64,000 nucleotides of DNA from Halorubellus sp. JP-L1 (GCF_011440375.1 NZ_JAAOIR010000004.1:124001-188000), one strand, 5' to 3'; shown: positions 46,913 to 58,487, counted from the first letter of the stretch. Translations and numbers: made by a program. The notes: generated by a model from the sequence alone, not told the origin.

Positions 46913-47533
46913 ATGTCGACTGAACCATCAGCGACTGCGACGACCGACAGCGGCGTCGCGGACCTGGACGAGGCCGCGGATCGACTGGAGACCGACGCGA
47001 TGCACGAGTCCGAGGAGGCCCTCGAGCTCGATCAGGTCTTCGAGATACTGAAGAACCAGCGCCGCCGGTACGTCCTCCAGTACCTCAGAGAGATCGACGA
47101 GACCGTCTCGATGAGCGACCTCGCCGAGGAGATCGCCGCCTGGGAGAACGGGAAGGAGGTGAGTCAGCTCTCGTCGAGCGAACGCAAACGCGTGTACGTC
47201 GGCCTCTACCAGTGCCACCTCCCGAAGATGGACAGCATGGGCGTCGTCGAGTTCAACAAGCCCCGTGGCCGTATCGAGCGCGGCCCGAACGCCGACGTCT
47301 TCGATCGATACCTGGAGACCGACGAGGAGGACGAAGGGCCGGCGTGGCATCGGATCCACGCGGCCACGGCCGCGGCGAGCGCCGTGGTCCTGGGCGTGGC
47401 ACTGGCCGCGCAGACGATGGTCGCCGGCCCGCTCGTCGCGATGGCTGGCCTGCTCGTCGTCGCCGGGAACGCCGGCTGCTCGGCCGCTCACTACCAGTGG
47501 GCGCGTACGGCGGCCGACGACGACGACACCTGA
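46913..47533 (+). CDS. DUF7344 protein with C-terminal membrane helices (paralogue C)
   Basis: This 206-residue protein has an acidic, Thr-rich N-terminus (1-38), a DUF7344 domain (about 40-130: LDQVFEILKNQRRRYVLQYLRE, LAEEIAAWENGKEVSQL, YQCHLPKMDSMGVVEFNKPRG) and two membrane helices (about 150-170, 172-192). It is the closest relative in the window of paralogue B. It is a predicted membrane-anchored regulator; the ligand is unknown. Confidence 0.87.
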   Translation: MSTEPSATATTDSGVADLDEAADRLETDAMHESEEALELDQVFEILKNQRRRYVLQYLREIDETVSMSDLAEEIAAWENGKEVSQLSSSERKRVYVGLYQCHLPKMDSMGVVEFNKPRGRIERGPNADVFDRYLETDEEDEGPAWHRIHAATAAASAVVLGVALAAQTMVAGPLVAMAGLLVVAGNAGCSAAHYQWARTAADDDDT

Positions 47534-47781: not shown

Positions 47782-48366
47782 ATGACGGTCGCGGAGGTCG
47801 GCGAGAACGTGACCGTCGAACCGGGTGCGACCGTCGGGTACGAGTACGACGACGACGTCGGCCCGGCGGTCCTCCTCGGGGACGCGACGGTCAGGCACGG
47901 CACCATCGTGTACGCGGACACGGAACTGGGGTACGGACTGCAGACCGGCCACAACGCGCTGATTCGGGAGCGCTGCATCGTCGGCGACGACGTGCTCGTC
48001 GGGACGAACGCCGTCCTCGACGGACTCCTGACGGTGGGCTCGAACGTGAGCATCCAGACGGGCGTGTACGTCCCGCCCGAGACCGCGATCGGGGACGACG
48101 TGTTCCTCGGCCCGCAGGTGACGATGACGAACGACCCGTACCCGCTCCGTCGGGACGTCCCGCTCCAGGGGCCGACGGTCGAGGACGGCGCGTCCGTCGG
48201 CGCGAACGCGACGCTACTGCCCGACGTCACCGTGGGCGAGAACGCGTTCGTCGCCGCGGGCGCGGTCGTCACCGAAGACGTTCCGCCGGACACGCTCGCG
48301 GTCGGCGTGCCGGCGACGCATCGACCGCTCCCCGAGGAACTGGCGGCCCGGAACGTGGTGGCATGA
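47782..48366 (+). CDS. Hexapeptide-repeat acyltransferase (WbbJ/WlbB-like)
   Basis: This 194-residue left-handed beta-helix protein has repeated hexapeptides (VGENVTVEPGATVG, IGDDVFLGPQVTMTND, VGENAFVAAGAVVTEDVPP). The pattern fits O- or N-acetyltransferases acting on nucleotide-linked sugars, such as WlbB/PglD-type enzymes that acetylate an amino sugar. Its partner is the overlapping aminotransferase gene (ATGA overlap), which would make the amino sugar first. ATG at 47782 is chosen because the beta-helix starts here. Confidence 0.88.
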   Translation: MTVAEVGENVTVEPGATVGYEYDDDVGPAVLLGDATVRHGTIVYADTELGYGLQTGHNALIRERCIVGDDVLVGTNAVLDGLLTVGSNVSIQTGVYVPPETAIGDDVFLGPQVTMTNDPYPLRRDVPLQGPTVEDGASVGANATLLPDVTVGENAFVAAGAVVTEDVPPDTLAVGVPATHRPLPEELAARNVVA

Positions 48367-49454
48367 TCCCGGTCGCGAACCCGACGTTCGGAGAGGCCGA
48401 GCAGGAGGCGGTCGCGGACGTCCTCGAATCCGGGATGGTCGCGGACGGCCCGGAGGTGCGTCGGTTCGAGGACGAGTTCGCCGCCGCGTGCGACGCCGGG
48501 CACGCGGTCGCGACGTCGAACGGGACCACGGCGCTGGTCGCCGCGCTGAAGGCGCTCGGCGTCGGCGAGGGCGATGCGGTCGTGACGACGCCGTTCTCGT
48601 TCGTCGCGAGCGCGAACGCCATCCGACTGGTCGGCGCGACGCCGGTGTTCGCGGACGTGGACCCGGAGACGTACAACCTCGACGCGGACGCGACGCGTGC
48701 GGCCGTGCGCGAGGCGGACGCCGACGGTATCCTCGCGGTACACCTGTACGGCCTCCCGGCGGACCTGTCCGCGCTCGCGGACGTCGCCGAGGAGGAGGAC
48801 GCCTTTCTCCTGGAGGACGCTGCGCAGGCCCACGGCGCGCGCTTCGATGGGTCGCCGGTCGGGTCGTTCGGCGACGCGGCCGCGTTCTCGTTCTACCCGA
48901 CGAAGAACATGACGACCGGCGAGGGCGGGATGGTGGTGACGAACCGCGAGGGCGTCGCCGAGGCGGCCGCGAGTTACGTCAACCACGGCCGCGGGGGCGA
49001 GGGCGGGTACGCGCACCGCGAGGTCGGGTCGAACCATCGGATGACGAGCATCGCGGCGGCCATCGGTCGCGTCCAGCTGGAGCGACTGCCCGCGTGGGTC
49101 GAGGCCCGGCGGGAGAACGCCGCGGCGCTTTCGGCTGCAGTCAGTGGCGTCGACGGCATCCATGCGCCGGTCGAGCCGGACGGTCGACGGCACGCGTACC
49201 ACCAGTACACCGTCAGGTGCGAGGACCGCGAGACGCTCGCCGACCACCTGGAGGCCGCGGGCGTCGGGACCGGCGTCTACTACCCGACGGCGATCCCGGA
49301 CCTCGAGGCGTACGACGACTTCGACGCGGACGTCCCGGTCGCGCGAGAGCTCGCCGAATCCGTGCTGTCGCTCCCCGTGCATCCGAACCTCTCGGACGCG
49401 GACCTCCTGCAGGTGGTGGACGCGGTCCAGAGCGCCGAGGTCGAGGCGCGATAG
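48363..49454 (+). CDS. DegT/DnrJ/EryC1/StrS-family aminotransferase
   Basis: This 363-residue PLP enzyme has the family pattern, with the PLP Lys in FYPTKNMTTGEGGMVV (K181) and the substrate segment HGRGGEGGYAHREVGSNHRM. Such enzymes transfer an amino group to a 3- or 4-keto sugar nucleotide. Its start overlaps the acyltransferase stop by four nucleotides, so the pair probably makes an acetamido sugar for the surface glycan. Confidence 0.93.
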   Translation: MIPVANPTFGEAEQEAVADVLESGMVADGPEVRRFEDEFAAACDAGHAVATSNGTTALVAALKALGVGEGDAVVTTPFSFVASANAIRLVGATPVFADVDPETYNLDADATRAAVREADADGILAVHLYGLPADLSALADVAEEEDAFLLEDAAQAHGARFDGSPVGSFGDAAAFSFYPTKNMTTGEGGMVVTNREGVAEAAASYVNHGRGGEGGYAHREVGSNHRMTSIAAAIGRVQLERLPAWVEARRENAAALSAAVSGVDGIHAPVEPDGRRHAYHQYTVRCEDRETLADHLEAAGVGTGVYYPTAIPDLEAYDDFDADVPVARELAESVLSLPVHPNLSDADLLQVVDAVQSAEVEAR

Positions 49455-49459
49455 CCCCG

Positions 49460-50050
49460 ATGTGGCCGTGGGAGCACGCCGCCGTCGGGTACGTCTGTTA
49501 CTCTATCGTGAGCCGGCTCCTCTCGGGAGAACCACCCGACGGCGACCCCGTACTCGCGCTCGCCGTCGGCACCCAGTTCCCGGACGTCGTCGACAAGACG
49601 CTATCGTGGGGGCTCGGCGTGTTCCCGACGGGGTACGCCGCCGGCCACTCCGTCCTCGTCTCCGTTCCCGTCGGCGTCGCGCTCGTCGCCGCAGCAGCCA
49701 GGGGGACACAGCGTCGGGTCGCCGTCGCGTTCGTCTTCGGGCACTGGTCGCACGTCGCCACCGACGTGCTCGTCACCCTCCGCGGCGGAGGCGACCCGGA
49801 GTGGGGGATCGCTCTGTGGCCGATCGTCGACCGCGAGCCCTACGGCGACGACCTCGGACTCGGACGTGGCCTCGTCTACTTCGCCGAGTACCTCGCGGAC
49901 GTCGCGCGGAGCGACGTCCAGACCCTCCTCGTCGTTCACCTCGGGCTGACGGCGCTCACGGTCGCGCTCTGGCTCGTCGACGGCGCACCCGGCCTCCACG
50001 CACTCGGTGCCCGCGTGCGGTGGTTCGCGCGGACCGTCCGCAGTCGCTGA
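49460..50050 (+). CDS. YdjM-like membrane protein (metal-dependent hydrolase annotation)
   Basis: This 196-residue protein has several membrane helices and the YdjM signature: MWPWEHAAVGYVCYSI, FPDVVDKTL, and GHSVLVSV with GHWSHVATDVL. His/Asp residues suggest metal binding. Members are often called LexA-binding or metal-dependent hydrolases, but their reaction is not established. It starts six nucleotides after the aminotransferase stop, so it is in the same operon. Confidence 0.82.
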   Translation: MWPWEHAAVGYVCYSIVSRLLSGEPPDGDPVLALAVGTQFPDVVDKTLSWGLGVFPTGYAAGHSVLVSVPVGVALVAAAARGTQRRVAVAFVFGHWSHVATDVLVTLRGGGDPEWGIALWPIVDREPYGDDLGLGRGLVYFAEYLADVARSDVQTLLVVHLGLTALTVALWLVDGAPGLHALGARVRWFARTVRSR

Positions 50051-50203: not shown

Positions 50204-50935
50204 ATGGAAGAATCTCCCGAACAGGTACAGCGGCCCATGGAGTTCACGTACGACTGGTACGCGGACTTCCTCTCGGACCTCCAAGCTGACGGCTACACCT
50301 GCAGGACGTTCCACGAAGACCTCGGCGACGGCGACGTGGTGCTCCGGCACGACGTCGACCTGTCCGTCGACGCTGCCGCCAGGATGGCGGCACTCGAGGC
50401 GGCCCAGAACGTCCAGTCGACGTACTTCTTCCTCCTGTCCTCGATGCTGTACAACCCGATGCGGGGGGACGCCCGGCGGACCATCCGGGATATCTCGTCG
50501 CTCGGCCACCAGGTCGGGCTGCACTTCAGTACGCACGAGTACTGGGGCGCGGACGAGGAGCCGTCGCGAGCCGAGCTCGAGGCGCGCGTCGCCGACGAAC
50601 TCGAGACGTTCGAGACGGTCCTCGGCGAGTCGACGGACGTGGTGTCGTTCCACAAGCCGCCGTCGTGGGTGTTCGGCGAGTCCTACGACGGGTTCGAGAG
50701 CACGTACGCGCAGCGGTTCTTCGAGGACGTCGAGTACGTCGCGGACTCGCGGATGCGGTGGCGTGACGACCCGCCGGACGTCGCCGACTTCTCCGGTCCC
50801 GTCCAGGTGCTCTCGCATCCGGGGCTCTGGCGCGAGGACGACGGGACGTTCCGCGACCGGATCGGCGAGGCGGTGATGGAGTCCTGCCAGACCGCCGGTC
50901 GCGAAGCCGACCGCGAGTTCCTCGGGGGGCGGTGA
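50204..50935 (+). CDS. Polysaccharide-deacetylase-like protein
   Basis: This 243-residue protein has the opening MEFTYDWYADFLSDLQADGY, then VVLRHDVDLSVDAAARMAAL and GHQVGLHFSTHEYW. The HDVD motif and LHFSTHE segment match the NodB-type deacetylase fold, but the second zinc motif HxxxH is not canonical (it reads HFSTHEYW). Catalytic activity is therefore likely but not certain. The start is chosen at 50204, as an AT-rich CATTACTAACC precedes it by about 32 nt. It is the first gene of an overlapping four-gene unit. Confidence 0.82.
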   Translation: MEESPEQVQRPMEFTYDWYADFLSDLQADGYTCRTFHEDLGDGDVVLRHDVDLSVDAAARMAALEAAQNVQSTYFFLLSSMLYNPMRGDARRTIRDISSLGHQVGLHFSTHEYWGADEEPSRAELEARVADELETFETVLGESTDVVSFHKPPSWVFGESYDGFESTYAQRFFEDVEYVADSRMRWRDDPPDVADFSGPVQVLSHPGLWREDDGTFRDRIGEAVMESCQTAGREADREFLGGR

Positions 50936-52374
50936 GCATGTACCGGGACATGACCGTCGCCGTCGTCGTGCCGGCGTACAACGAGGAGGGGTTCGTCGGT
51001 GACGTCATCGACGACTTCCCCGGGTTCGTCGACCGCGCCTACGTGATCGACGACGGGTCGACGGACGGGACCTGGGACGAGATACTGACCCACACGGAAC
51101 GGAAGAACGCCGAGCACGACGGGCACTACGACGACCTCGTCGTCCCGATCCAGCACGAGGAGAACCGCGGCGTCGGTGGCGCCATCAAGACCGGGTACGA
51201 GCACGCGCTCGAGGAGGGCGTGGACGCGACGGCGGTGCTGGGCGGCGACGACCAGATGGACCCCCACGAGCTAGAGAAGTACCTCGACCCGATCGCGGAC
51301 GGCGTCGCCGGGTACGCGAAGGGGAACCGGTTCGTGCGTTCCGAGGACTGGATCCACATGCCGAAGTTCCGGCTGCTCGGGAACGTCGTGCTGTCGCTCC
51401 TCACGAAAATCTCGAGCGGTTACTGGGGATCGATGGACTCCCAGAACGGCTACACCGCGATCTCCCACGACGCCCTCGAGCGCACGGAGTTCGAGGGGAT
51501 GTACGAGTACTACGGGTACTGCAACGACCTGCTCGCGCGACTGAACGCCGCGGACGTGGTGGTCGCGGACGTCCGCCGGAAGACGGAGTACGCGTACCAG
51601 GAGGGCTGGAAGAGCCACATCGACTACAAGGAGTACATTCCACGCGTGTCCGCGATGTTGTTCCGGACGTTCCTCTGGCGGCTCTACCGGAAGTACCTCG
51701 TCCGGGACTACGACCCGCTCGCGCCGCTGTACGGCGTCGGGATGGCTTCGATGGCCGGGGGCGTGGTCGGGTTCGTCAACTCGCTCGTCCGTCGCGACGG
51801 CGAGGACGCGGGGTCGTGGGCGGTCGCGACCGTCCTCGGCGCGCTCGCGTTCGTGTACGCGACGCTGCGGGACGCCGATGACAACGAGGAGAACGTGGTC
51901 GTCGTCGACCCGGAGGCAGATGCGGAATCGGACGAGGTGACGCAGTCCCGATCGGCGACGCAGTCGGTGCCGGCGGCCGCCGACGGCGGCACCGTCGCGT
52001 CCGGCGACGGTAGCGATACGATCGCGGACACCGGCGGGGAGTCGGTCGCGGACGCCGACGCGCTCCCGTTCGACGCCGTGACCGACGCCGCGACGGACGG
52101 CCGCGACGCGGCCGACCTGGACCTCGACGACGACGCGGCGCTGGCGGCCGCACTCGAGGACGCGAGCGACGCCGACCACCTCGCCGACGTCTCCCTCCAG
52201 GAGGTGCTCGACGCGGTCCCGGACGCCGCGGATGCGATCCCGGACGCCGAGGACGCCACGGTCGAGAACCTGAACCCGACCGACGGCGACCTCGGCTCGC
52301 TCGACGTCTACGACGGGACCGACGCTCGCGACGAGGAACCGAGTCGCGACGACGAGGGGGCGGACGATGTCTAG
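50932..52374 (+). CDS. Family-2 glycosyltransferase with acidic C-terminal tail
   Basis: This 480-residue GT2 enzyme has VAVVVPAYNEEGFVGDVI, then VIDDGSTDGTWDE and the metal-binding GGDDQMD. A roughly 30-residue hydrophobic region (about 260-310: GVGMASMAGGVVGFVNSL, WAVATVLGALAFVYATL) probably forms two membrane helices. It resembles dolichyl-phosphate sugar synthases (DPM1/AglJ type). The last ~160 residues are an Asp/Ala-rich acidic tail with a short amphipathic part (DVSLQEVLDAVPDAADAIPD), unusual for the family. The GTG at 50932 overlaps the deacetylase stop by four nucleotides. Confidence 0.9.
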   Translation: MSMYRDMTVAVVVPAYNEEGFVGDVIDDFPGFVDRAYVIDDGSTDGTWDEILTHTERKNAEHDGHYDDLVVPIQHEENRGVGGAIKTGYEHALEEGVDATAVLGGDDQMDPHELEKYLDPIADGVAGYAKGNRFVRSEDWIHMPKFRLLGNVVLSLLTKISSGYWGSMDSQNGYTAISHDALERTEFEGMYEYYGYCNDLLARLNAADVVVADVRRKTEYAYQEGWKSHIDYKEYIPRVSAMLFRTFLWRLYRKYLVRDYDPLAPLYGVGMASMAGGVVGFVNSLVRRDGEDAGSWAVATVLGALAFVYATLRDADDNEENVVVVDPEADAESDEVTQSRSATQSVPAAADGGTVASGDGSDTIADTGGESVADADALPFDAVTDAATDGRDAADLDLDDDAALAAALEDASDADHLADVSLQEVLDAVPDAADAIPDAEDATVENLNPTDGDLGSLDVYDGTDARDEEPSRDDEGADDV

Positions 52375-53515
52375 CGTGCGACCCGAGCACGGCGGCGACC
52401 GCGACCCGATCACGGTCGTGATGACGGGCGCGGGCGCGCCGGGGGCGTCCGGCATCGTCCGCAGTCTCCGCGGTGCGCCGGACCGCGAGGTCGAGGTCGT
52501 CGGCGTGGACATGGACGCGAACGCGTACGGGTTCGCGCTCGTCGACGACCACGACGTCGTCCCACCCGGCGACGACCCCGAGTTCGTCGAGGAGCTCGCC
52601 GCGGTCGTCGATCGCGTGGACGCGGACGTCGTGCTGCCGCTCGTGACTGCGGAGCTCCAGCCCCTCGCGGAGAACCGGGACCGCATCGACGCGACCGTGA
52701 TGGTCTCCGAGGCCGAACGGCTCGCGGTCGCGAACGACAAGGCCGCGCTCTACGGGTTCCTCGGCGACGAGGGGTTCGCGTCCGCGCCCGAGTTCCGACT
52801 CGTCGAATCGCGCGAGGCGTTCGTCGACGCCGTCGGGGCGCTGGGGTACCCCGACGAGCCGGTGTGCTTCAAGCCGCCCGTCGGGAGCGGGAGTCGCGGG
52901 TTCCGCGTCCTCGACGAGCGCGGCGACGACCTCCAGCGGTTCCTGGAGGAGAAGCCAGACGTCGCGACGACGACGCTCGACGACGTCCTCCCGGTGCTCG
53001 ACTCCGGGGATTCGTTCCCCGCGCTCGCGGTCATGGAGTACCTGCCCGGCGAGGAGTACAGCGTCGACGTGCTCGCGACGGACGACGGGGCGCACGCGGT
53101 GGTGCCGCGCTCCCGGTCGCGCACTCGCGCCGGCATCTCGTTCGAGGGCACCATCGAGCGCCGCGAGGACCTGATCGAGGAAGCCGCGGCGATCTGCGAG
53201 GGCCTGGGCCTCGAGTACAACGTGAACCTCCAGTTCAAGTACGCCGCCGACGGCACGCCGAAGGTCATCGAGATCAACCCGCGCGTCTCGGGGACGATCG
53301 TCCTCTGCGTCGGCGCCGGCGCGAACCTCCCCTACCTCGCCGTGACGCACGCGCTCGACGAACCGCTCCCCGAGGTGGACGTCGCATGGGGGACGAGCAT
53401 GGTCAGGTACTGGGACGAGGTGTTCACGAGCCCTGACGGCGACCGCTACCACGTCGACCCGCCGGCGTTCCGACGAACGAACGGCGAGGTGTTCGACGAG
53501 ACGCCGTCGCGATGA
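52367..53515 (+). CDS. ATP-grasp ligase (carbamoyl-phosphate-synthase-like)
   Basis: This 382-residue ATP-grasp protein has an N-terminal Rossmann-like part (VVMTGAGAPGASGIVRSL), a lid with FKPPVGSGSRGFRVL, and the ATP/metal site NLQFKYAADGTPKVIEINPRVSGT. Such ligases couple an acid to an amine or other nucleophile through an acyl phosphate. The neighbours suggest an amide or amino-acid decoration on a sugar, but this is inference. The gene overlaps the GT2 by eight nucleotides. Confidence 0.9.
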   Translation: MSSVRPEHGGDRDPITVVMTGAGAPGASGIVRSLRGAPDREVEVVGVDMDANAYGFALVDDHDVVPPGDDPEFVEELAAVVDRVDADVVLPLVTAELQPLAENRDRIDATVMVSEAERLAVANDKAALYGFLGDEGFASAPEFRLVESREAFVDAVGALGYPDEPVCFKPPVGSGSRGFRVLDERGDDLQRFLEEKPDVATTTLDDVLPVLDSGDSFPALAVMEYLPGEEYSVDVLATDDGAHAVVPRSRSRTRAGISFEGTIERREDLIEEAAAICEGLGLEYNVNLQFKYAADGTPKVIEINPRVSGTIVLCVGAGANLPYLAVTHALDEPLPEVDVAWGTSMVRYWDEVFTSPDGDRYHVDPPAFRRTNGEVFDETPSR

Positions 53516-54192
53516 CCGGGACCGCCGTCTGCTTCGACCTCGACGACACGCTCTTCGACTACCACGAGTACGCTCGCGCCGGCCTCCGGTCCGCGGCGAC
53601 GCTCGTGGAGCGCCGCACCGGCCGGCGCGTCCACGACGACCTCGTCGACCTCTACTTCGACCAGTCGGTCGACGAGGGGACGTTCGACCTCCTCCTGGAG
53701 CGCTATCACCTCCCGCGATTGGACGTCGAGATGCTCGTCGAGGCGTTCCACGACTCGTCTGGCGAGCTCCCGCCGTACCCCGAGACGGAGGCGGTCCTGG
53801 ACGCGCTCGGCGAGAACCATCGCCTGGGCGTCGTCACGGACGGCCGCGGCGGACACGGAAAGCTCGACAGGCTCGGCATGCGCGAGCACTTCGACGTCGT
53901 CGTCGTCACGCCGAACGGCGACCACTCCAAGGAGCACCGCGTCGTCTTCGAACGCGTCCTCGACGACCTCGGCGTCGCCCCCGGGGACGCGGCGTACGTC
54001 GGCGACGACCCGCGCGTCGACTTCCACCACCCGAACGACCTCGGGATGACGACCGTCCGCCTGCGCCGCGGCCGCTACGTAGACCTCGACGCCCCGACCG
54101 CCGCGCACGAGCCCGACCACGAGATCGACCACCTCGGCGACCTCCTCACCGACGTCCCCGCAATCGCCACGGAACCGCGACGCGCCGACTGA
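53512..54192 (+). CDS. HAD-family hydrolase
   Basis: This 226-residue HAD-superfamily protein has motif I VCFDLDDTLFDY (D9, D11), motif II VVTDGRGG, Lys in NGDHSKEHRVVF and motif IV YVGDDPRVDFHHP. The cap is small, as in phosphoglycolate-phosphatase or sugar-phosphate phosphatase subtypes. It overlaps the ATP-grasp gene by four nucleotides, so it probably dephosphorylates a sugar or intermediate of the same pathway. Confidence 0.9.
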   Translation: MTGTAVCFDLDDTLFDYHEYARAGLRSAATLVERRTGRRVHDDLVDLYFDQSVDEGTFDLLLERYHLPRLDVEMLVEAFHDSSGELPPYPETEAVLDALGENHRLGVVTDGRGGHGKLDRLGMREHFDVVVVTPNGDHSKEHRVVFERVLDDLGVAPGDAAYVGDDPRVDFHHPNDLGMTTVRLRRGRYVDLDAPTAAHEPDHEIDHLGDLLTDVPAIATEPRRAD

Positions 54193-56586: not shown

Positions 56587-56963
56587 GCACGTGGAAGACG
56601 CTCCCACAACCACGTTGTAACGGGTAACATACCGGTCAGGACGTGTCACAGAGCCGTCGATATGCCGCGCCTATCGGTCGGTATCGGTCACGGCGGGGTC
56701 TGTTGGGTTCGGCGCGGGTACCGTCGCTCTCCGGAGCGTCGTCGTGTGACCGTTCCACGCCGACGGCGACCGGCGAGCGGCTAGGCGACGAATAACTATG
56801 CGCGCAACGGCGGTGGGTCCGACAGGACGTCGACCGTCCCTGGCGGATCGTGGGTCGACGCCGTACAGGAAACGATGAGAGTACACGACACGCGCGGACG
56901 CGGTGGTCTGAACACACGCGGACGCAGTGGTCCGGACGCACGCGGACGCGGTGGTCCGTAGGG
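56587..56963. other. 377-bp divergent gap with 24-bp repeat
   Basis: It separates the surface-protein gene and the flippase gene, which diverge. Its right end is the 24-bp repeat (56889-56960). The rest shows no recognised feature. Confidence 0.6.
56889..56960. repeat. 24-bp tandem repeat, three copies, just before the flippase start
   Basis: Units at 56889, 56913 and 56937 share the core CACGCGGACGC(G/A)GTGGTC. The array ends three nucleotides before the ATG of the flippase gene (56964) and therefore occupies its leader or promoter. Confidence 0.88.
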
Positions 56964-58487
56964 ATGGCTGGCTTCGAGAACTTCACGGAGCGACTGGCGT
57001 CGATCGTGAGCGCGCGCGTCCTGAAGCTCGTGGTCACGTTCGTCTCCACGCCCATCGTCGTCCGCCTCCTCGAACCCTCCGGGTACGGGGACTACGCAGT
57101 CCTCCTGTCCGTGTTTGCCGTCTTCATCCTCCCCGTGAGCGCCGCGGTGACGGAGGGCGTCCAGAAGTACGTCGGCGAGGAGCGCGCGGACGAGGTGGAC
57201 TGGCAGGAGCGCGTCGTCGCGTTCTACGCGATCTTCGGGGGCGTGCTCATCGTCGGCGCGGTGCTCGTCATGCTCGCGTTCACCGCCCTCGGTGGTGCGG
57301 CGTGGCTATTCGGGGACGCGTTCACGCTGTACTTCTACCTGCTCGCCGGGCACGTGTTCTTCGCGCAGTTCCGCGCGATCGGCTACCACGCCGTGCTCGG
57401 GTTCGGGAACGAGAAGGCGACCGCGACGTTCGACGTGGCGAAGAAGCTCTTGACGATGGTCGTCGGGATCGGACTCGTCCTCGCGCTCGGCGTGGGCGTC
57501 GAGGGAATGCTCGTCGGGCACGTCGTCGCGAACCTGATCATCGCAATCGCAGCCGGCGCGCTGGTCCTGCGAACGATCGACGTCACGCGGTTGTCGCTCC
57601 CGTCGCTCCGGGACCTCCCCCTCCGCGAGCTCGCGGCGTTCAACGCGATGAACATCGTCCTCGTTCTGCTCGTGCGGTCGATGGCGCACGTCGACGTCGT
57701 CATGCTCCGCGTCATCACCGAGTCGTCGACGACCGGGTTCTACAAGGCGGCGCTGAGTACGGCCGAGTACATCTGGATCGTCCCGATGGCGCTCCAGACC
57801 GTCCTCCTGCACTCCAGTTCCGGGCTCTGGAGCGAGAACCGGACCGACGAGATTACCGATATCGCGACCCGGATCACGCGGTACAACCTCCTGCTCGTGA
57901 TCCTGCTGGCGATCGGGATGGCGACGCTCGTCGACCGGTTCGTCCCGCTTTACTTCGGGAACGAGTACACTGCGTCCATCGTCCCGTTGCTCGTCCTGCT
58001 CCCCGGCGTCGTCGGGTTCGCGGCCGCGCGCCCACTGCAGGCGATCGGACAGGGGTCCGGGCGGATGCGGACGCTCGTGCTCGCCGTCGGCGGTGCGGCC
58101 GCCCTGAACCTCGCCCTGAACGCCCTGCTCATCCCGACCTATGGAATGATCGGTGCGGCCGCGGCGACCAGCATCGGGTACGGGTCGATGTTCGGGTTCC
58201 TCACGTGGTCCGCGTACCGCCTCGGCTACGACCCGCTCGCCGACGTCCGCGCGGTCCGCATCGGTCTCACCGCCGCCCTCACCACGCCAGTCGTCTGGGG
58301 CGTCGACCAGCTCGTCGCCTCCGATATACTCGCGCTCTTCGTCGTCCCACCGATCGGGCTCGTCGCGTACCTCGTCGTCGCGGTGAACGTCCGCGCGATC
58401 GACGTTGACGAGATCCTGGCCATCGTCGACCGCGCCCCCCCGCGCATCGGGGGGCCCATCAGGACCGCGCTCGCGTGGGTCGACTGA
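56964..58487 (+). CDS. Oligosaccharide flippase (polysaccharide biosynthesis family)
   Basis: This 507-residue protein of the MATE/RfbX-like oligosaccharide flippase family has about 12-14 membrane helices. Conserved elements include LVVTFVSTPIVVRLLEPSGYGDYAVL at the N-terminus, and TTGFYKAALSTAEYIWIVPMALQ in the middle. It should flip lipid-linked glycans across the membrane (Wzx or AglR-like role), linking the transferase operons to the exterior. The ATG at 56964 is preferred, as it is followed directly by the family N-terminus. A repeat array abuts it. Confidence 0.92.
   Translation: MAGFENFTERLASIVSARVLKLVVTFVSTPIVVRLLEPSGYGDYAVLLSVFAVFILPVSAAVTEGVQKYVGEERADEVDWQERVVAFYAIFGGVLIVGAVLVMLAFTALGGAAWLFGDAFTLYFYLLAGHVFFAQFRAIGYHAVLGFGNEKATATFDVAKKLLTMVVGIGLVLALGVGVEGMLVGHVVANLIIAIAAGALVLRTIDVTRLSLPSLRDLPLRELAAFNAMNIVLVLLVRSMAHVDVVMLRVITESSTTGFYKAALSTAEYIWIVPMALQTVLLHSSSGLWSENRTDEITDIATRITRYNLLLVILLAIGMATLVDRFVPLYFGNEYTASIVPLLVLLPGVVGFAAARPLQAIGQGSGRMRTLVLAVGGAAALNLALNALLIPTYGMIGAAAATSIGYGSMFGFLTWSAYRLGYDPLADVRAVRIGLTAALTTPVVWGVDQLVASDILALFVVPPIGLVAYLVVAVNVRAIDVDEILAIVDRAPPRIGGPIRTALAWVD

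Follow-up and report, generated by a model that had tools for sequence, protein, structure and literature searches.

A conserved haloarchaeal gene cassette as a candidate pathway for N-acyl exchange on a lipid-carried amino sugar

L-Ara4N synthesis by the Arn pathway proceeds through amination by ArnB, formylation by ArnA, transfer of the sugar to undecaprenyl phosphate by ArnC and deformylation by ArnD (PMC12650200). The Wbp/Wlb pathway to UDP-GlcNAc(3NAc)A or UDP-ManNAc(3NAc)A relies on a dehydrogenase, a Gfo/Idh oxidoreductase, a DegT aminotransferase and a hexapeptide N-acetyltransferase. Among the archaea, the archaellin N-glycan of Methanococcus contains GlcNAc3NAcA together with a mannuronic acid substituted with threonine at position 6 (PMC2952790), and a passage of PMC4187196, citing Steber and Schleifer (1979), places N-glycyl-glucosamine in the cell wall of Halococcus morrhuae. 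The present analysis concerns a cassette of Halorubellus sp. JP-L1, located at 50204-54192 of a 64,000-nucleotide stretch of DNA (GCF_011440375.1, NZ_JAAOIR010000004.1:124001-188000; hereafter the window), whose four overlapping genes encode a putative deacetylase (DEAC), a GT2 glycosyltransferase (GT2), an ATP-grasp protein (ATPG) and a HAD phosphatase (HAD). To our knowledge, few archaeal glycan pathways have been worked out and most archaeal enzymes for attaching amino acids or other acids to sugars are unidentified; the cassette supplies named candidates for such genes, predicts the sugar they act on and makes a test by simple mass differences possible.

With confidence only slightly better than even, the four genes are interpreted here as that half of a surface-glycan pathway which loads the lipid carrier and exchanges the N-acyl group; the product of the cassette is probably an unusual amino sugar on a lipid carrier, with the acyl group on its nitrogen swapped for another. 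The principal argument is drawn from gene partnerships: the CE4 deacetylase is paired with changing N-acylating enzymes and the ATP-grasp protein with changing deacetylases, which suggests that both act on the same nitrogen. By analogy, the cassette appears to work like ArnC and ArnD but is not Arn. A DegT aminotransferase, an N-acyl- or formyltransferase, a DPMS-like GT2 acting on polyprenyl phosphate and a CE4 de-N-acylase are common to both, whereas the cassette is archaeal, its sugar is probably a 2,3-diamino-hexuronic acid and not a pentose, its acyl group would be acetyl and not formyl, and it includes an additional ATP-grasp ligase and a phosphoesterase. The annotated genes of the cassette and its surroundings include no formyltransferase or ArnT-like protein, the whole genome not having been searched.

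DEAC, GT2, ATPG and HAD occur together in 14 haloarchaeal genomes of four families, the window included, a co-occurrence that exceeds chance and bears out the gene-neighbourhood check proposed in a preliminary description of this DNA, which had been prepared from the sequence alone. With the window proteins as queries, and with gene calls outside the window being heuristic, the seven-gene order ACT-DegT-YdjM-DEAC-GT2-ATPG-HAD was recovered in 12 genomes, again including the window (L038, L039, L040, L043, L094-L097, L149, L150 and L155; L148 and L152 were treated as duplicates of L094 and L097). The cassette is rearranged in L098, and the four genes stand alone in L151. The four open reading frames of the window were confirmed, all on the plus strand, with the high GC content at third codon positions and the acidic composition of genuine haloarchaeal genes. 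Their overlaps of 4, 8 and 4 nucleotides (nt) agree with the 4-8 nt described earlier, except that GT2 may start either at the overlapping GTG at 50932 or at the ATG at 50938, so that the DEAC/GT2 overlap is not certain. Overlap lengths differ between relatives (8 nt for DEAC/GT2 in L038, a 24-nt gap in L040) while the order is constant; it is thus the gene order that is conserved and not the exact overlap. Since the ACT, DegT and YdjM-like genes (47782-50050) share the conserved block, the unit extends upstream to about 47782, and a boundary at 50204 is too short. Of the 391 genomes of the class, 24 have an ATPG match at 1e-40, so that the distribution of the cassette is patchy. In L155 (Halapricum CBA1109) both the ATP-grasp gene and the DegT gene are broken across two frames, either through an assembly error or through decay.

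The association of the ATP-grasp protein with a deacetylase and a phosphoesterase extends well beyond the haloarchaea. A scan of 84,980 species genomes by two peptide patterns, in which the loci were read as stop-to-stop frames with profile searches, yielded at least 80 loci (L148-L227), counts that are not to be taken as frequencies. Among the matches listed, ATPG lies between a PIG-L de-N-acetylase and a phosphoesterase of the PHP or HAD type, usually with overlap, in Thermoplasmata, Hadarchaeota, Methanothrix, Micrarchaeota, Bacteroidota, Bacillota, Acidobacteriota and others; with such triads in other archaea and in bacteria, an isolated haloarchaeal oddity was rejected. A deacetylase was assigned in 52 of 104 loci listed (35 with PIG-L within 400 nt, 17 with CE4) and a HAD or PHP gene lies within 400 nt of ATPG in 46, with some genomes present twice and the distance-based assignments being rough (L220 was scored as CE4 though PIG-L also lies at 733 nt, and PIG-L is more than 400 nt away in L157 and L223). 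By combination, the loci comprise CE4 with HAD (17), PIG-L with HAD (14), PIG-L with PHP (10), PIG-L alone (11), PHP or HAD alone (5) and no partner of either kind (47); this final group consists mainly of solitary Chitinophagaceae copies and Haloferax-type copies. Chance adjacency was rejected on the same loci, PIG-L being within 400 nt of ATPG in 35 and elsewhere in only 5. On a quick maximum-likelihood tree, made without bootstrap, the partners switch several times; the members with CE4 and HAD are compatible with a single group at low branch support (22).

A fresh sample of the phylum, taken with the cassette ATPG profile after the triad had been noticed, gave PIG-L-ATPG-PHP in all seven loci examined, which belong to six genomes of other archaeal families and to G104, already seen earlier. 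The methanogen-type operon of G627 has the order GT2-DUF354-PIG-L-ATPG-PHP-UGDH and thereby repeats the four roles of the window, with proteins of unrelated fold in two of these roles. A further divergent ATP-grasp gene stands beside a PHP and a CE4 gene in L242. In haloarchaea, methanogens and Bacteroidales the triad is embedded among glycan genes. The Haloferax-type orthologues (L100-L108, L156) have neither a deacetylase nor a phosphoesterase partner, and catalytic residues are missing from them, with E302 and N304 changed for example; these copies still adjoin DUF354 and UDP-sugar dehydrogenase genes. In a large Bacteroidota clade, Chitinophagaceae and relatives (L166-L212), intact solitary ATP-grasp genes of this family occupy a housekeeping neighbourhood, by eye next to TraB/GumN-like and UbiD-like genes, and may have a separate role.

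The deacetylase changes its partners as well. In haloarchaea without ATPG and HAD, a formyltransferase gene overlaps the CE4 gene or lies next to it (L045, L054-L059), or an LpxD-like hexapeptide N-acyltransferase does so (L046, L049 and the relatives L047-L051; farther off in L042 and L044), these partners having been called by Pfam in L045, L054-L057, L059, L046, L049, L042 and L044 and by sequence resemblance in the others. The CE4/formyltransferase pairs recall the formylation and deformylation by ArnA and ArnD, here in archaea. Scans of DEAC alone against Pfam and NCBIfam gave no match at 0.001, and its score against Pfam Polysacc_deac_1 (E-value 0.033, 14.6 bits) lies below the gathering score of 23.1. 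Nevertheless, the 26 top PDB fold matches of its AlphaFold model (predicted local distance difference test, pLDDT, 92.7) are all CE4/NodB deacetylases, including ArnD (8t0j), and the motifs R48-H-D50-V-D52, H107-F-S-T-H111 and H205-P are invariant, except for H111 in a divergent clade. DEAC is predicted from its modelled fold and its motifs, not by the Pfam cut-off, to be a divergent CE4/NodB member, as the earlier label of a deacetylase-like protein had implied. It has no hydrophobic segment and should therefore act in the cytosol.

GT2 carries the motifs GGDDQMDP and GNR in invariant columns and one hydrophobic window at 294-312, and matches the PDB entry 5mlz (E=1.6e-4). It is predicted to be of the dolichyl-phosphate sugar synthase type with a C-terminal membrane part, in line with the previously proposed likeness to polyprenyl-phosphate sugar synthases. 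An identification as AglJ was rejected, the match to TIGR04182 (1.4e-13) reaching 50.9 bits against an equivalog cut-off of 325 bits. Its tail (window 51920-52374), comprising 150 residues, 30% of them acidic, and rich in alanine, is far longer than in relatives and is probably disordered.

The ATPG model (pLDDT 90.9) matches 2pn1 and then PurK, PurT, PylC and the amino-acid ligase RizA, the last four being all carboxylate-activating enzymes, and its nucleotide- and metal-binding residues K125, K169, E224, E302, N304 and R306 are invariant in a wide alignment. ATPG is thus a predicted ATP-grasp carboxylate-amine ligase with intact catalytic residues. Its best sequence and fold match is the PRK12767/ATPgrasp_Ter family (2pn1), whose catalytic residues it keeps, though its 128 bits against PRK12767 fall under the curated cut-off of 218 and the activity of that family is not determined. 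The description of ATPG as resembling carbamoyl-phosphate synthase was right as to the fold; an identity with that enzyme was rejected, the ATP-grasp fold alone being common to both. In HAD, the DxDxT nucleophile motif (FDLDDT) and the C-terminal GDDPR are conserved as in HAD-IA phosphatases, which agrees with its original naming.

The sugar is suggested by genes that the preliminary description had left out; that description was largely right about the chemistry, and what it missed were the genes from which the substrate is defined, namely the upstream aminotransferase and acetyltransferase and the more distant Gfo/Idh and UDP-HexNAc dehydrogenase. The closest PDB entries of the acetyltransferase (ACT) are the 3-N-acetyltransferase QdtC and also the acetyltransferase 3mqg, and those of the aminotransferase (DEGT) include the 3-aminotransferases QdtB and WbpE, among others; by similarity, the relatives of both appear to be mostly 3-amino-sugar enzymes. 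Mutually adjacent Gfo/Idh and UDP-HexNAc dehydrogenase genes, sought with the L065 proteins as queries, were found in every one of the 13 genomes examined, the ten cassette genomes among them, at 6-37 kb from the cassette. In the window genome the pair lies at C4:194.4-197.0 kb, 6.4 kb beyond the window end and about 17 kb downstream, and is followed by a DUF354 protein (L141). The dehydrogenase has UDP-ManNAcA dehydrogenase as PDB neighbour, and the best PDB match of the Gfo/Idh protein is 7bvj (a Gfo/Idh oxidoreductase), not a chain named WlbA or WbpB. The complete Wbp/Wlb gene set is thus present and linked in the window genome, and in the relatives L062 and L065 ACT-DegT-Gfo/Idh-dehydrogenase-GT2-CE4 form a single run. 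By analogy, the linked genes probably complete a Wbp/Wlb-type route to UDP-2,3-diacetamido-2,3-dideoxy-hexuronic acid; the configuration may be gluco or manno, and the amination may be at C3 or at C4. The cassette differs from the classical pathway in that its genes are split over two loci and that deacetylation and ATP-grasp ligation are added.

We propose the following route, in which each reaction and its place in the order are inferred. DegT and ACT, with the distal Gfo/Idh and UDP-HexNAc dehydrogenase, would make UDP-2,3-diacetamido-2,3-dideoxy-hexuronic acid, and GT2 would load the diacetamido-uronic acid onto polyprenyl (dolichyl) phosphate at the cytosolic face. The CE4 deacylase would then strip an N-acetyl group from the lipid-linked sugar, as ArnD strips formyl after ArnC. 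ATPG would use ATP to activate a carboxylic acid (formate, an amino acid or a hydroxy acid, which may carry a phosphate) and couple it to the freed amine, and HAD, or PHP elsewhere, would remove a phosphate from the acid or acyl group, the acceptor or another intermediate, the weakest step of the scheme. The product may be flipped and then built into a surface glycan. The chemistry originally proposed, a deacetylation and then amidation by the ATP-grasp enzyme, fits the PIG-L/CE4 and HAD/PHP swaps; the original interpretation as a whole is partly supported.

Several observations weigh against this interpretation and lend themselves to other explanations. The support is entirely comparative, and the role of the HAD phosphatase is left unexplained. 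The sugar probably bears a carboxylate that ATPG could use instead; in that event, which we consider unlikely, ATPG would form a uronamide by coupling the C6 carboxylate with an amine or an amino acid, and the deacetylase would separately expose a charged amine. A UDP-HexNAc 6-dehydrogenase accompanies every cassette and directly adjoins the ATP-grasp triads of some archaea (L235, L240), and Methanococcus voltae and M. maripaludis have a 6-threonine uronic acid next to GlcNAc3NAcA, made by an enzyme unidentified as of 2010 (PMC2952790). The Methanococcus glycan is comparable in structure, being archaeal and combining a diacetamido uronic acid with a bound amino acid, and differs in that this amino acid is at position 6 and not on a sugar amine. 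The Halococcus polymer is haloarchaeal with the amino acid on a sugar amine. Triads in Bacteroidota and other clusters have no dehydrogenase in view (L161), and the close tie of ATPG to de-N-acetylases in the loci listed favours acylation of an amine over uronamide formation.

The pairings of CE4 with formyltransferases and LpxD-like enzymes could add the group that CE4 removes, so that the order may be reversed, and CE4-GT2 pairs exist without ATP-grasp or HAD (L041, L042, L044). An Arn-like protection, in which an N-acyl group is added before lipid transfer and removed by CE4 afterwards to leave a free amino sugar, with ATPG adding a temporary group or acting elsewhere, is rather improbable in our view. 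The established order of ArnA formylation, ArnC transfer and ArnD deformylation (PMC12650200), the overlap of deacetylase and formyltransferase genes in several haloarchaea and the presence of ArnD among the DEAC fold matches speak for it; but the cassette acetyltransferase would already serve for protection, making a second, ATP-consuming ligase redundant, and PIG-L/ATP-grasp pairs exist without any GT2. The large Chitinophagaceae group with solitary ATP-grasp genes outside a glycan context implies that the ligase has other uses. Mycothiol synthesis uses MshB, MshC and a phosphatase, an activity set equal to that of deacetylase, ATP-grasp and phosphatase here, and these three could make a soluble metabolite with GT2 nearby by operon convenience. 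The Chitinophagaceae copies outside glycan clusters would agree with this, but the glycan genes around the triad in haloarchaea, methanogens and Bacteroidales and the membrane polyprenyl-phosphate type of GT2 make it very improbable.

Returning to N-acyl exchange, a broader proposal is possible, though doubtful: a de-N-acetylase of any fold, an ATP-grasp ligase and a phosphoesterase of any fold might form a general module in Archaea and many bacterial phyla for N-acyl exchange on lipid- or nucleotide-linked amino sugars, with a phosphorylated acid donor dephosphorylated by the third enzyme. The enzyme families are known, and the three-enzyme module itself looks undescribed; no paper naming both PIG-L and ATP-grasp was found, weak evidence of novelty since subscription papers were not covered. 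We know of no gene for the N-glycyl-glucosamine of Halococcus. That unrelated enzymes fill the same steps again and again points strongly to the function of a large family filed as 'carbamoyl phosphate synthase-like protein', and many surface-polysaccharide clusters of bacteria and archaea could be interpreted in this way.

Table 1. Features of the cassette and its surroundings in the window
Feature	Position	Strand	Evidence and remarks
DUF7344 (winged-helix-like) putative regulator	46913..47533	+	PF24035 2.4e-31
ACT, hexapeptide sugar N-acetyltransferase (predicted)	47782..48366	+	closest PDB QdtC; also WlbB-like 3mqg
DEGT, DegT/DnrJ pyridoxal phosphate-dependent sugar aminotransferase (predicted)	48363..49454	+	PF01041 5e-114; 4-nt overlap with ACT
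YdjM-like membrane protein	49460..50050	+	PF04307; syntenic in cassettes
DEAC, putative cytosolic CE4/NodB-fold N-deacylase	50204..50935	+	fold and D50/D52, H107/H111, H205 motifs
GT2, dolichyl-phosphate-sugar-synthase type (predicted)	50932..52374	+	PF00535 1e-18; C-terminal hydrophobic stretch and 150-aa acidic tail
ATPG, PylC/PurT-like ATP-grasp carboxylate-amine ligase (predicted)	52367..53515	+	ATPgrasp_Ter 6.9e-35; ATPgrasp_Ter/PRK12767 family
HAD, HAD-IA phosphoesterase (predicted)	53512..54192	+	HAD_2 1e-14; FDLDDT and GDDPRVD motifs
FLIP, candidate Polysacc_synt (Wzx-like) flippase	56850..58487	+	PF01943 3.2e-8; true start probably internal

Neighbours 53-74% identical to the DUF7344 protein are present just upstream of the cassettes in L094-L097 and L039, and a gene of the FLIP type occurs near the cassettes in L038, L040, L094 and L096. 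Just past the window end, the same glycan island contains a second, very divergent ATP-grasp gene (L141:3477-4718; ATPgrasp_Ter 7.3e-6) and a second polysaccharide deacetylase gene (L141 5802-6731).

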